The notes under the pieces: model-generated | The model's database searches: none | Seen by the model: only the letters and a program-made list of their open reading frames with translations | What the model was told of the DNA's origin: nothing | Made by a program: the position numbers and the translations under genes | Origin: Falsiroseomonas oleicola | GTDB lineage: Bacteria > Pseudomonadota > Alphaproteobacteria > Acetobacterales > Acetobacteraceae | Length of the DNA stretch: 64,000 nucleotides | Direction of reading: 5' to 3' | NCBI RefSeq assembly: GCF_019029495.1 | Contig: NZ_JAERQM010000002.1 | Span: forward strand, 682,001 to 746,000 | Part shown: positions 5,245 to 49,606 of the stretch, piece by piece | Layout: each line of letters starts with the position of its first letter | How positions within the stretch are numbered: the stretch's first letter is position 1

Positions 5245-6858
5245 ATGCCGAACACGGCAAGCCAGACAGTGGCGCAGGCGCTGCTGGAGGACCTCGCGGG
5301 GCGCGGCACCAGGCGCATCTGGGGCGTGCCGGGCGGTGGTTCCTCGCTCGATGTCATCGCCGCCGCGCCCCGCTTCGGGGTGGACTTCATCCTGGCCCGG
5401 CAGGAAGCCAATGCGGCGATGATGGCGCTGGCAGATGCCGAGCTGACGGGCGCGCCGGGCGTGGTGATGACCACCAAGGGGCCGGGCGTGTCCAATGCCG
5501 CCAACGGCCTCGCCTGCGCCACGCTGGAACGCGCGCCGCTGCTGCTGCTCTCGGATGGTTTTTCCAGCCAGCAATTGGGCTGGGTGACACATCAGGTCTT
5601 CGACCAGCAGGGTGCTACGGCGGCGATCGGCAAGGGCTATGCGCGGGCGGAGGGCGATGCGCCGCGGGACGAGATCGCCGGGCTCCTGGACCTCGCGCAG
5701 CAGGCGCCGCGCGGCGCCGTGCATCTCGACCTCACGGTCCAGGCGGCGCGGCGCGCGGCGCCGCCGGCCGGGCCGCGCCGGGCAGCGCCGGCCATGGCCG
5801 CGCCCATCGGCGATGCGGCGGCGTTGCTGGCGCAGGCCAGGCGGCCGGTGATCCTGGCGGGCGTCGAGGCCGCCGAGCCAGGCGCCAGCATGGCGCTGCG
5901 CGCGCTGGCCGAAGCGCTGGGCTGCCCGGTGCTGGTCACCTACAAGGCCAAGGGCGTGCTGCCGGATGCGCATCCGCTCTATGCGGGCCTGTTCACCGGC
6001 GGCGCGCTGGAGGCGCCCTGCGTCGGCGCGGCGGACCTCATCATCCAGGCCGGCCTCGATCCGGTGGAGCTGATTCCGCAGAGCTGGCGCTACAAGGCGC
6101 CGATCCTCGATATCGCGCTGCGGCCGCATCCGGTGCGCTATGCCGATCCCACCGCCGCGCTGCATGGCGATATCGCCGCGAGCCTGGAGGTGATGCGTTC
6201 GGTGGCGCAGCCCTCCGCCTGGACCGATTCCGAAATCGCCGGCCATCGCGACACCGCGCTGGCGGCGCTGGACTGGCAGGGGCAGGGGGGTGTCTCGCCG
6301 CCGGATATCGTGCGCATCGCCCAGCAGGAAGCCCGCGCCGTCAGCCGCGCGCCGCGCGCCACGGTGGATGCGGGCGCGCATATGTTCTCCGCCACCGCCT
6401 TCTGGCAGGCGGAGCAGCCGCGCGACCTGCTGATCTCGAACGGCCTCGCCTCCATGGGCTTTGCATTGCCGGCCGGCATTGCTGCGGCACTGCATGATCC
6501 GGCGCGCGGCGCGGTGGCCTTCACCGGCGATGGCGGGCTGATGATGTGCGTCGGCGAACTGGCGACGGCGCGGCAGATGGGCGCAAGGCTGGTCACCATC
6601 GTCTTCAACGACAGCGCCCTGTCGCTGATCGACATCAAGCAGCAGCAGCGGCAACTCACCCCGGCCGGCGTCGCATTCGCGCCCACGGATTTCGCCAGGG
6701 TCGCCGAGGGCTTTGGCGTGCCCGGTTTCCGGGCCGACACGCCCGAAACCTACCGCACCGCGCTGCGCGCGGCCTTCGCGGTGGAAGGTCCGAGCCTGGT
6801 CGACGTGCAGGTCAACCCGGCGGGCTACCCCGCGCAGCTGCAGGCGCTACGCGGCTGA
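5245..6858 (+). CDS. thiamine-pyrophosphate-dependent enzyme (acetolactate synthase-like)
   Basis: A 537-residue member of the acetolactate synthase/benzoylformate decarboxylase superfamily. The N-terminal TPP pyrimidine domain has GVPGGGS and the catalytic Glu54 in RQEANAAMM, where most relatives have an R-H-E sequence. A central FAD/ADP-like domain covers about 190-320. The C-terminal domain holds the diphosphate motif GDGGLMM followed by the Asn of VFNDSALSLI. Start 5245 follows GGGTGGGAG; an ATG at 5218 is possible. No small regulatory subunit gene is adjacent, so biosynthetic acetolactate synthase is unlikely and the substrate is open. A structured repeat lies between it and the convergent aminotransferase gene. 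Confidence 0.85.
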   Translation: MPNTASQTVAQALLEDLAGRGTRRIWGVPGGGSSLDVIAAAPRFGVDFILARQEANAAMMALADAELTGAPGVVMTTKGPGVSNAANGLACATLERAPLLLLSDGFSSQQLGWVTHQVFDQQGATAAIGKGYARAEGDAPRDEIAGLLDLAQQAPRGAVHLDLTVQAARRAAPPAGPRRAAPAMAAPIGDAAALLAQARRPVILAGVEAAEPGASMALRALAEALGCPVLVTYKAKGVLPDAHPLYAGLFTGGALEAPCVGAADLIIQAGLDPVELIPQSWRYKAPILDIALRPHPVRYADPTAALHGDIAASLEVMRSVAQPSAWTDSEIAGHRDTALAALDWQGQGGVSPPDIVRIAQQEARAVSRAPRATVDAGAHMFSATAFWQAEQPRDLLISNGLASMGFALPAGIAAALHDPARGAVAFTGDGGLMMCVGELATARQMGARLVTIVFNDSALSLIDIKQQQRQLTPAGVAFAPTDFARVAEGFGVPGFRADTPETYRTALRAAFAVEGPSLVDVQVNPAGYPAQLQALRG

Positions 6859-6904
6859 GGACGGCGCGGGTTCATACCAACGGCCCTTTCGCGTGACCGC
6901 TCCG

Positions 6905-7016
6905 GGCCGCCCTCAGGCGCCGGGCGCCGCCTCCGGCGGCTTGGCTTCGCCGCATAAGCGGCGGCGCCCATTCGGGCGCTCGGACCGGTCAAGAGACCGG
7001 TCCGCTTATATCAGAC
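6905..7016 (-). repeat. dispersed hairpin-array repeat, copy A
   Basis: Read on the minus strand, this begins at the stop codon of the aminotransferase gene and forms a chain of hairpins. Stem 1 is 6982-6990 with 6995-7003. Stem 2 is GCGCCC/GGGCGC with loop ATTC at 6970-6973. Stem 3 is CGCCGC (6948-6953) with GCGGCG (6958-6963) and loop ATAA. A GC-rich stem 4 follows. It aligns over its whole length with copy B at 45212-45319. Stems differ by paired changes while loops and junctions are kept. Confidence 0.75.
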
Positions 7017-7919
7017 GCGCGTGCGCCATTCCGGATGGGCGTCGGTGGTGCCGCGCACCACTGCCTCATAGGCCGCCTGCAACTGCCGGGTCACGGGTCC
7101 GGGCGTGCCGTCGCCGACAGGCAGGCGGTCGACGCTGGTCACCGCCACCAGCTCCTGCCCCGTGCCGCAGAGGAACACCTCCTCCGCCACATACAGCTCC
7201 GTCCGATCGACATCGCGCTGTTCGACGGCAAGCCCGGCCTCGGCGGCCAGCACCAGCACCGTCTCCCGCGTCACGCTTTCCAGGATGTCGCTGCCTTTGC
7301 CCGGCGTCACCAGCACGCCATCGCGCAGCAGGAACAGGCAGGCCGCCGCGGCCTCCGAGACCTTGCCGCGCGCCGTCAGCAGCAGGGCGCTGTCATAGCC
7401 ATCCGTCCGCGCCTGGAGATTCGCCAGGCGCGAGGCGTGATAATTGGCGGTGGCCTTCACCCGCGGCGGCATGGCGTTGTCCGAGATGCGGGTCCAGGAG
7501 GAGACGGTGGCGGCCAGGCCCGTGGCGAATTTGGCCGAACGTTCCCGCGGCAGCGCCGCCGCGATCCAGCCGACCGGCCCGGTGCTGGCCAGCGTGCCGA
7601 TGCCCTCGATCTGCGCCTGCACCCGCAGATAGGCATCCTCATCCGGCGCGTTCAGCCGCAGCACTTCCAGCACCGCGGCGCGCAGCACCTCCGTGCTCGG
7701 CGGCGAGTCGAAACGCATGACCTTCATGCCCTGCTGCAGCCGCGCGAGATGCTCCTCCAGCCGGAACACGCTGAGGCTGCCATCGCTGGGGTTCATATAG
7801 GCGCGCAGACCCTCGAACACCGCCACGCCATAGGCGACGCCGACCGCCAGCGGGTGCAGCCGCGCCTCGGCGAAGGGGATCGCCTGGCCGTTGTGGATGA
7901 TGGTGTGGGCCTGCCACAT
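7011..7919 (-). CDS. ilvE: branched-chain amino acid aminotransferase (class IV)
   Basis: A 302-residue fold-type IV PLP aminotransferase, most likely making or degrading Leu, Ile and Val with 2-oxoglutarate. Family marks are FEGLRAY near residue 35, the PLP lysine K155 in RVKATANYHASRLA, and Glu189 in GKVSEAAAACLFLL, which holds the pyridine nitrogen. Start 7919 is chosen because CAGGAAC lies upstream at good spacing and the protein then begins like its homologues (MWQAHTIIHNG). A longer open frame to 7994 runs into the divergent promoter region. A D-amino-acid or aminodeoxychorismate enzyme is less likely given the FEGLRAY motif. Confidence 0.88.
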   Translation of the reverse strand: MWQAHTIIHNGQAIPFAEARLHPLAVGVAYGVAVFEGLRAYMNPSDGSLSVFRLEEHLARLQQGMKVMRFDSPPSTEVLRAAVLEVLRLNAPDEDAYLRVQAQIEGIGTLASTGPVGWIAAALPRERSAKFATGLAATVSSWTRISDNAMPPRVKATANYHASRLANLQARTDGYDSALLLTARGKVSEAAAACLFLLRDGVLVTPGKGSDILESVTRETVLVLAAEAGLAVEQRDVDRTELYVAEEVFLCGTGQELVAVTSVDRLPVGDGTPGPVTRQLQAAYEAVVRGTTDAHPEWRTRV

Positions 7920-45211: not shown

Positions 45212-45319
45212 GTCTGACATGCGGCCGGCGTCTTACGCCGGCCGAGCGGCCGAATGGCCGCCGCCGCTTATGCGGCGAGCCAAGGCCGCGGATGCGGCCG
45301 CCCGGCACTTGAGGGCACC
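45212..45319 (+). repeat. dispersed hairpin-array repeat, copy B
   Basis: It begins 20 bp after the PEP carboxylase stop and fills the gap to the convergent rhodanese gene. Stem 1 is GGCCGGCG/CGCCGGCC with loop TCTTA. Stem 2 is GCGGCC (45246-45251)/GGCCGC (45256-45261) with loop GAAT. Stem 3 is CGCCGC/GCGGCG (45262-45277) with loop TTAT. Stem 4 is GGCCGC/GCGGCC. It matches copy A from GTCTGA to TGAGGGC, with paired stem changes. Confidence 0.75.
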
Positions 45320-49454: not shown

Positions 49455-49555
49455 GCCCTTGTGACGCCGCACCGGGGCAACCGCAAGGCACCGGCAAGGC
49501 GGATCGGGGGCAGGCGCTGCGCCGCCGCCCGGTGCCACGGCACTTTAGCGAAGGC

Positions 49556-49606
49556 GGCCCGCCATGCGGGCCGAGCGGCCGAACGGCCGCCGCCGCTTAT
49601 GCGGCG
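49556..49606 (+). repeat. dispersed hairpin-array repeat, shortened copy C
   Basis: Three hairpins of the A/B element in the same order: GGCCCGC/GCGGGCC (49556-49572, loop CAT), GCGGCC/GGCCGC (loop GAAC, 49575-49590) and the constant CGCCGC-TTAT-GCGGCG (49591-49606). The junction GAGCG is kept. The 3-prime part of the element is missing; an unrelated GCATCCGC/GCGGATGC hairpin follows about 15 bp later. It lies in the divergent promoter gap of the methyltransferase and GT-C genes. Confidence 0.7.

Follow-up and report, generated by a model that had tools for sequence, protein, structure and literature searches.

The hairpin array directly downstream of ilvE in Falsiroseomonas oleicola probably represents one copy of a mobile DNA repeat that is dispersed in the genome, as opposed to a regulatory element of ilvE. 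The array appears to have inserted at the gene's stop codon, and a small genomic hitch-hiker is a likelier description of it than a control switch for ilvE. We read it as a member of a new family of structured intergenic repeats with a REP-like core and a MITE-like composite form. This reading rests on the copy number of the element, the covariation of its stems, its placement at the 3′ ends of genes, the TNA repeats around composite copies and the lack of PF01797 matches in the genus. The window referred to below is the whole stretch of 64,000 nucleotides that was analysed, in which three copies (A, B and C) are located (Table 1).

Architecture of the element

The core unit, approximately 95 bp long, is made up of four hairpins, the loops and joints of which are conserved, and ends with TGAGGG. 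It comprises, in order, a weak ACCT, GCGG..., hairpin 1, GAG, hairpin 2, hairpin 3, GA(A), GCCAAG, hairpin 4, CGCCCGGCG, TGAGGG and a short A-rich stretch, the loop of hairpin 2 being mostly GAA(T/C) and that of hairpin 4 mostly GGA(T). GAG, GAAT, GCCAAG and TGAGGG are conserved among the F. oleicola copies, GCCAAG and TGAGG recur in copies from several orders, and the core is retained while the ends and stem 1 vary between lineages. Hairpin 1 is of the ACCGGT type in 30 of the 102 F. oleicola copies analysed, copy A included, and the other 72 have another stem 1. Composite copies measure approximately 130-195 bp (129-194 bp for the 18 clear F. oleicola copies) and often carry a fifth hairpin, and tandem arrays with a period of approximately 100 bp are present.

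Table 1. Coordinates of the three copies and their parts in the window.
Copy	Feature	Position	Strand	Remark
A	full composite copy, 136 bp	6875..7010	-	
A	TGA	7011..7013	-	ilvE stop codon; left copy of the 3-bp TNA direct repeat around copy A
A	left end TATAAGC	7004..7010	-	variant; the commoner end is TACCAGC
A	hairpin 1, GGACCGGT/ACCGGTCC, loop CTCTTG	6982..7003	-	variable among other copies
A	hairpin 2, GCGCCC-GAAT-GGGCGC	6964..6979	-	
A	hairpin 3, CGCCGC-TTAT-GCGGCG	6948..6963	-	6 perfect arm alleles among 102 copies
A	GCCAAG	6940..6945	-	conserved; its GCC can pair with GGC after hairpin 4
A	hairpin 4, GCCGCC-GGA-GGCGGC	6926..6940	-	
A	tail GCCCGGCGCCTGAGGGC	6909..6925	-	conserved
A	hairpin 5, GGCCC...GGGCC	6882..6908	-	
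A	right end GTTGGTA	6875..6881	-	inverted TACCAAC
A	TGA	6872..6874	-	right copy of the 3-bp direct repeat
B	core without composite ends	45222..45316	+	called as between convergent genes
B	hairpin 1	45222..45244	+	
B	hairpin 2	45246..45261	+	
B	hairpin 3	45262..45277	+	
B	GCCAAG	45279..45284	+	
B	hairpin 4	45284..45299	+	
B	tail	45300..45316	+	
C	truncated copy	49553..49606	+	hairpins 1-3 only; hairpin 4 and tail lost
C	hairpin 1	49553..49572	+	
C	hairpin 2	49575..49590	+	
C	hairpin 3	49591..49606	+	

The initial annotation had correctly located the three copies and recognised that the arms of stems 1 and 2 are complementary in each; its description of a dispersed, covarying hairpin array distinct from a single REP palindrome is supported by the present analysis. 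The extent given for copy A (6905-7016) is corrected to 6875-7010: the element begins directly after the ilvE stop codon (7011-7013), and hairpin 5 and the right end (6875-6908) had been overlooked. The inverted ends of copy A resemble those of an IS630-family element. The GTCTGA that was taken as the start of the element is indeed present at copy A, where it is the end of ilvE (GTC TGA) and no part of the element; as GCGG has nothing more than a weak ACCT before it in the copies with another stem 1, the GTCTGA match between copies A and B is probably a coincidence. Copy C retains hairpins 1-3 and has its right half (GCCAAG, stem 4 and TGAGGG) replaced by other sequence. The supposed invariance of the CGCCGC-TTAT-GCGGCG hairpin proved to be an artefact of viewing three copies, as a perfect 6-bp stem is found in 74 of 102 copies, with 6 different arms and 16 different loops among them. 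When folded as RNA, copy A gave a z of -5.7, and its minimum-energy fold is not the hairpin array, as hairpins 2-4 fold into each other; hairpins 2 and 3 form as drawn in the remaining 14 of the 15 copies folded.

A number of variants were also observed. In Croceicoccus and other named genomes, cores occur as head-to-head pairs around a spacer (five loci and others), and the A-rich stretches after TGAGGG often point outwards in these pairs. Nine F. oleicola loci carry an additional hairpin (GTCGCGCC...GGCGCGAC and variants) inserted at one fixed place, the 3′ arm of hairpin 3, and a similar mini-hairpin, TCACGCC...GGCACGA, is found between CGCCCG and CTGAGGG or nearby at eight loci, with nested mini-hairpins at two fixed sites in some copies. 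A longer variant beginning GCGC(C/A)CA(A/G)ACC replaces hairpin 3 at five loci. Finally, a separate short palindrome with similar ends (e.g. TACCAACGGTCGATGAAATCG...CCGTTGGTA) adjoins some cores (four loci) and is perhaps a minimal relative of the composite form.

Copy number and distribution

Eleven copies of similar stem-4 length served to build a covariance model that covers hairpins 2-4 together with the tail and omits stem 1. The search with this model, which the initial annotation had proposed, recovered further copies with stems that are mostly still paired, at least 122 matches being obtained in the F. oleicola genome at E up to 0.01 (150 candidates scored). The analysis was performed on 102 of these copies (108 matches minus three duplicates from overlapping loci and three weak or partial matches), the remaining 20 being 19 weaker matches and one that was dropped. 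An exact search of the 5.6-Mb genome for the 14-nt core hairpin returned 18 sites as compared to one for the reversed pattern, and a chance origin was rejected by these counts together with the shuffles and stem-1 controls described below.

Among 59 sampled genomes, matches were present in all 15 of the genus, F. oleicola included, and in at least 2 of 20 genomes from other genera of the family and at least 3 of 24 genomes from other families (83 candidates scored). A survey of the class detected the element in at least 24 of 289 genomes, again including F. oleicola, from at least 19 of 219 genera (17 candidates scored). A strict motif identified 54 stretches on named contigs, which belong to Falsiroseomonas, Roseomonas, Roseococcus, Croceicoccus, Erythrobacter, Porphyrobacter, Qipengyuania, Blastomonas, Magnetospirillum and a Rhizobium MAG. 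A copy is found close to the 3′ end of tRNA-Ala(CGC) in three assemblies, those of Porphyrobacter, Erythrobacter and an alphaproteobacterial MAG, and this common placement suggests that some positions may be inherited vertically. Carriage by known phages was rejected, as the element had no match among INPHARED phages and just one matching stretch in IMG/VR; two plasmid records, both from Niveispirillum, matched, and no features are listed in one of them. A known Rfam RNA was likewise rejected, since no family matched in the window at the gathering score, and in E-value scans of 11 loci only V_AS7 fell over an element, with 21 bits (E 1.2) where its gathering score is 90.

Covariation of the stems

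In the starting 11 copies all 231 stem cells pair and 32 are doubly changed, values that none of 500 shuffles reached, two other measures being weaker (67/500 and 12/500). Both large alignments were fitted to the model structure and are therefore biased towards it: in the F. oleicola alignment A6 (104 distinct rows of 108 matches) 98.1% of 2133 cells are paired, both members vary in 17 of the 21 pairs, and the doubly changed cells number 407 as compared to a shuffled mean of 139 (0/500 shuffles), while in the corresponding alignment A7 of 124 distinct matches from other genomes 95.7% are paired, with 469 doubly changed cells against 143 in shuffles. Stem 1 lies outside the model; directly next to the modelled part, 68 of 102 copies have 7 bp or more paired without mismatch, as compared to 1.7% of 1020 control positions, and 79 of 102 have 5 bp or more, with 36 different arms among them. 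The covariation is real, as stem 1, absent from the model, still pairs far above controls.

Where an RNA is selected on one strand, G.U is tolerated more than A.C, and a small tRNA control gave 4 G.U versus 1 A.C among 84 cells. The F. oleicola copies contain 20 G.T and 22 A.C among 2133 stem cells, and the other genomes 18 and 31, respectively, 23 of these 31 A.C cells belonging to the model's first hairpin, a poor fit to some lineages, with two of its pairs unpaired in 26 and 27 cases. No difference by gene context was observed, G.T being commoner only in convergent gaps (11 versus 10). This balance points to palindromes at the level of DNA and fits selection or a mutational process alike. 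Where both bases of a pair in hairpins 2 and 3 have changed, G-C has in most cases become C-G, and G.U cells are few. Selection on structure, as claimed in the initial annotation, is thus possible yet unproved, because doubly changed stems with few G.U intermediates are also compatible with a DNA process that keeps palindromes perfect.

Gene context and the ilvE locus

Genes were called with a simple codon-usage caller trained on the window, and none of the 102 F. oleicola copies overlapped a called gene by more than 30 nt. Convergent gaps hold 43 copies, co-directional gaps 26 in sense and 29 in antisense orientation, and divergent gaps four, as compared to 16 convergent, 84 co-directional and 49 divergent among 149 element-free gaps of at least 20 nt at the same loci, so that divergent gaps are depleted (4/102 versus 49/149, P 4e-9; 2e-8 with one copy per locus). 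There was no orientation bias in the co-directional gaps (binomial P 0.79). Nine of the 26 sense copies terminate in TGAGGG 1-9 nt before the next called start, and the GAGGG of the element could there act as the ribosome-binding site of the next gene. A dedicated gene beside the cores was rejected, as no cluster among the 186 proteins flanking the F. oleicola copies exceeds 5 members; judged by one member each, the top five clusters are presumably ordinary families.

The initial annotation had suggested that the array may act as a 3′ RNA element of ilvE, and the evidence from this locus speaks against such a role. No terminator-like site was found in 6700-7200, the copy A region to which the scan was applied, and an intrinsic terminator was rejected, as no hairpin with a T-run is present there. 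Eleven of 14 congeners have a close ilvE homologue, and no element-like sequence was detected 3′ of the gene in these 11, the best model score being 22 bits, within the ilvE match itself, as compared to 94 bits for copy A; a conserved ilvE element was therefore rejected. Given the similar numbers of G.T and A.C, the lack of orientation bias and the 11 ilvE loci without the element, selection at the RNA level is not supported.

Composite ends, target sites and transposases

Both ends (TACCAGC-like and GTTGGTA-like) were found within one mismatch in 16 of the 30 ACCGGT-type copies as compared to 1 of 30 for reversed motifs, and composite copies thereby possess terminal inverted repeats as MITEs do. 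They also possess the target site duplication of MITEs: identical flanking trinucleotides occur in 12 of 38 both-end rows, a set that includes chance end matches and does not include copy A (permutation mean 2.8, maximum 9 in 10000), and all 12 exact direct repeats are TNA, six of them from other genera or families (G029, G041 and G045). The 18 clear F. oleicola copies, in which the left end is one of seven variants listed after the copies were seen and the right end is within one mismatch, have an exact 3-nt direct repeat in 9 cases and none in the other 9. In 8 of these 18 the left trinucleotide serves the sense gene as stop codon, and in 3 more the right one serves the antisense gene. With four of the 18 sites skipped, a called gene overlapping an element end there, stop codons were hit in 10 of 14 testable gaps, whereas the available TNAs would lead one to expect 7.4 (P 0.014); this enrichment is mild, and most of the preference for stop codons follows from the TNA target and the small gaps.

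The F. oleicola genome harbours an IS630-family IS with the ends TACCAACGGCAT/ATGCCGTCGGTA and TGA on both sides, the transposase gene of which is broken, three separate open pieces matching consecutive parts of NF033545. The link of the composite copies to this candidate partner consists of approximately 10 bp of terminal similarity and the TGA flanks, and is weakened by the broken gene and by the fact that IS630-family elements are generally known to duplicate TA, not TNA. IS-related DNA is present in congeners (at best 73% over 1037 nt, in G010), and one end of the relative in congener G003 reads GGCGTTGGTA-TTA. This relative gave 25 partial matches, many at contig ends, and is probably an IS present in multiple copies at which the assembly breaks.

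At two sites, the genes that flank the element in F. oleicola are also neighbours in congeners, where the element is lacking. At the fabG site of the congener, TGATTGAC occurs twice around a 16-nt hairpin, owing to which the exact pre-insertion sequence can only be inferred, and at the L178 site two relatives are without the element but differ in gap sequence.

The 72 copies mentioned above are defined by another stem 1 and not as copies proved free of ends. Terminal inverted repeats are near background among them, both ends being found in 7 as compared to 3 for reversed motifs and neither end in 49, which indicates that an IS630-type machinery hardly reaches these copies. Target duplication was not observed in the 59 of 72 that were testable (mean longest shared word 4.44 versus 4.40 permuted, P 0.38), nor in the 54 copies without both ends (4.44 versus 4.38, P 0.28). 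PF01797, the RAYT/Y1 transposase profile, had no match at E up to 0.001 in any of the 15 genomes of the genus, nor in G025, G029 and G045, all with many copies; the same search did detect it in 5 of 14 control genomes and, among carriers, in G035 and G041, each with a few copies. No constant GTAG or CGTC tag was seen by eye in the copies read. A RAYT-associated REP was rejected, as PF01797 is not matched in the genus and the unit is not a single tagged palindrome of 20-40 bp.

Discussion

An IS630-type transposase acting in trans and duplicating TNA would have mobilised the composite copies. TGA and TAA stop codons are themselves TNA sites and would often be the sole tolerated ones in small gaps, which may explain why copy A inserted at the stop codon of ilvE, with the codon restored. 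Against the reading of the element as a mobile repeat, the conservation of motifs across the class is greater than expected for the interior of a passive hitch-hiker. It is conceivable, though rather unlikely, that the core is instead a new self-spreading four-hairpin unit, sharply bounded (GCGG ... TGAGGG and the A-rich end), which multiplies across Alphaproteobacteria to about a hundred copies as single, tandem or head-to-head units without RAYT, terminal repeats or target duplication, with a mechanism that also keeps its stems paired, and which is sometimes captured by IS630-type ends.

Other explanations were weighed against the same data. Strong covariation, placement at 3′ ends and a very stable fold would suit a cis-acting 3′ RNA element, the hairpins of which protect or end upstream transcripts and the stems of which are kept paired by selection on RNA, but such a function is improbable when orientation is unbiased, G.T is not commoner than A.C outside convergent gaps, copy A has neither a U-run terminator nor a best fold that corresponds to the array, and ilvE of 11 congeners is without it. 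Selection on DNA would keep both arms and loops if the hairpins were a host site that binds a chromosomal protein, as REPs reportedly do with gyrase or Pol I; the strand-symmetric pairing, the conserved motifs and the retention of the core under differing ends and stem 1 agree with this, while a presence as patchy as that seen in the class survey ill suits a needed site and the position at ilvE is not conserved, so that we consider such a site unlikely. We know of no protein that binds the core. Movement of a classical REP/BIME by a RAYT (Y1) transposase appears highly improbable in view of the genus and the three copy-rich genomes without PF01797, the four hairpins per unit and the lack of a recognised GTAG-type tag, despite the intergenic, hairpin-based nature of the repeat, its tandem arrays, its inverted pairs in Croceicoccus and other named genomes, and the PF01797 matches in two carriers of a few copies. 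A possible, if doubtful, account that is compatible with a mobile repeat is that covariation arose without selection, template switching at palindromes copying one arm onto the other; the prevalence of G-C to C-G double changes with few G.U cells in hairpins 2 and 3 and the strand-symmetric mismatches of the F. oleicola copies argue for it, whereas the constancy of loops and joints across the class is left unexplained.

The mobile repeat shares features with several described families. Like the REP, BIME and REPIN elements of the GTAG and CGTC super-families, it is an extragenic hairpin repeat with many copies, dimers and clusters, yet those consist of one hairpin of 20-40 bp as compared to four hairpins, approximately 95 bp and a different sequence here (PMC3733652). 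The CGTC repeats are described as mainly alphaproteobacterial, without a dedicated transposase and missing in Acetobacteraceae, whereas the present family is abundant in genomes related to Roseomonas and Falsiroseomonas (PMC3733652). The BOX element of Streptococcus pneumoniae is similarly a modular intergenic repeat with a stable predicted structure and inner modules variable in number, but it differs in sequence and organisms, the present family being GC-rich, patchy over a class and characterised by counted stem covariation (PMC3049150). RUP and other MITEs with IS630-type ends are likewise short and non-autonomous with inverted ends that resemble an IS630-family IS, but here the direct repeats are TNA and not TA, and the hairpin array also exists without ends (PMC2229807). 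The CIRs, the methyltransferase-associated repeats of Caulobacter, are structured intergenic alphaproteobacterial repeats of approximately 110 bp, with two arms and GANTC in place of the four or five hairpins seen here (PMC2229807). GANTC was present in 2 of 102 F. oleicola copies, and identity with CIRs was rejected. No published description of the element was found in the open-licence PMC literature, which is weak evidence of absence.

An abundant family for which no name was found is thus present in a class whose REP-like repeats reportedly lack a dedicated transposase. As its stems vary in matched pairs with few intermediates, comparison of close strains could distinguish selection from mutation that keeps palindromes perfect. 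By landing on stop codons that are restored in the process, composite copies would illustrate how repeats can fill compact genomes and leave genes intact.
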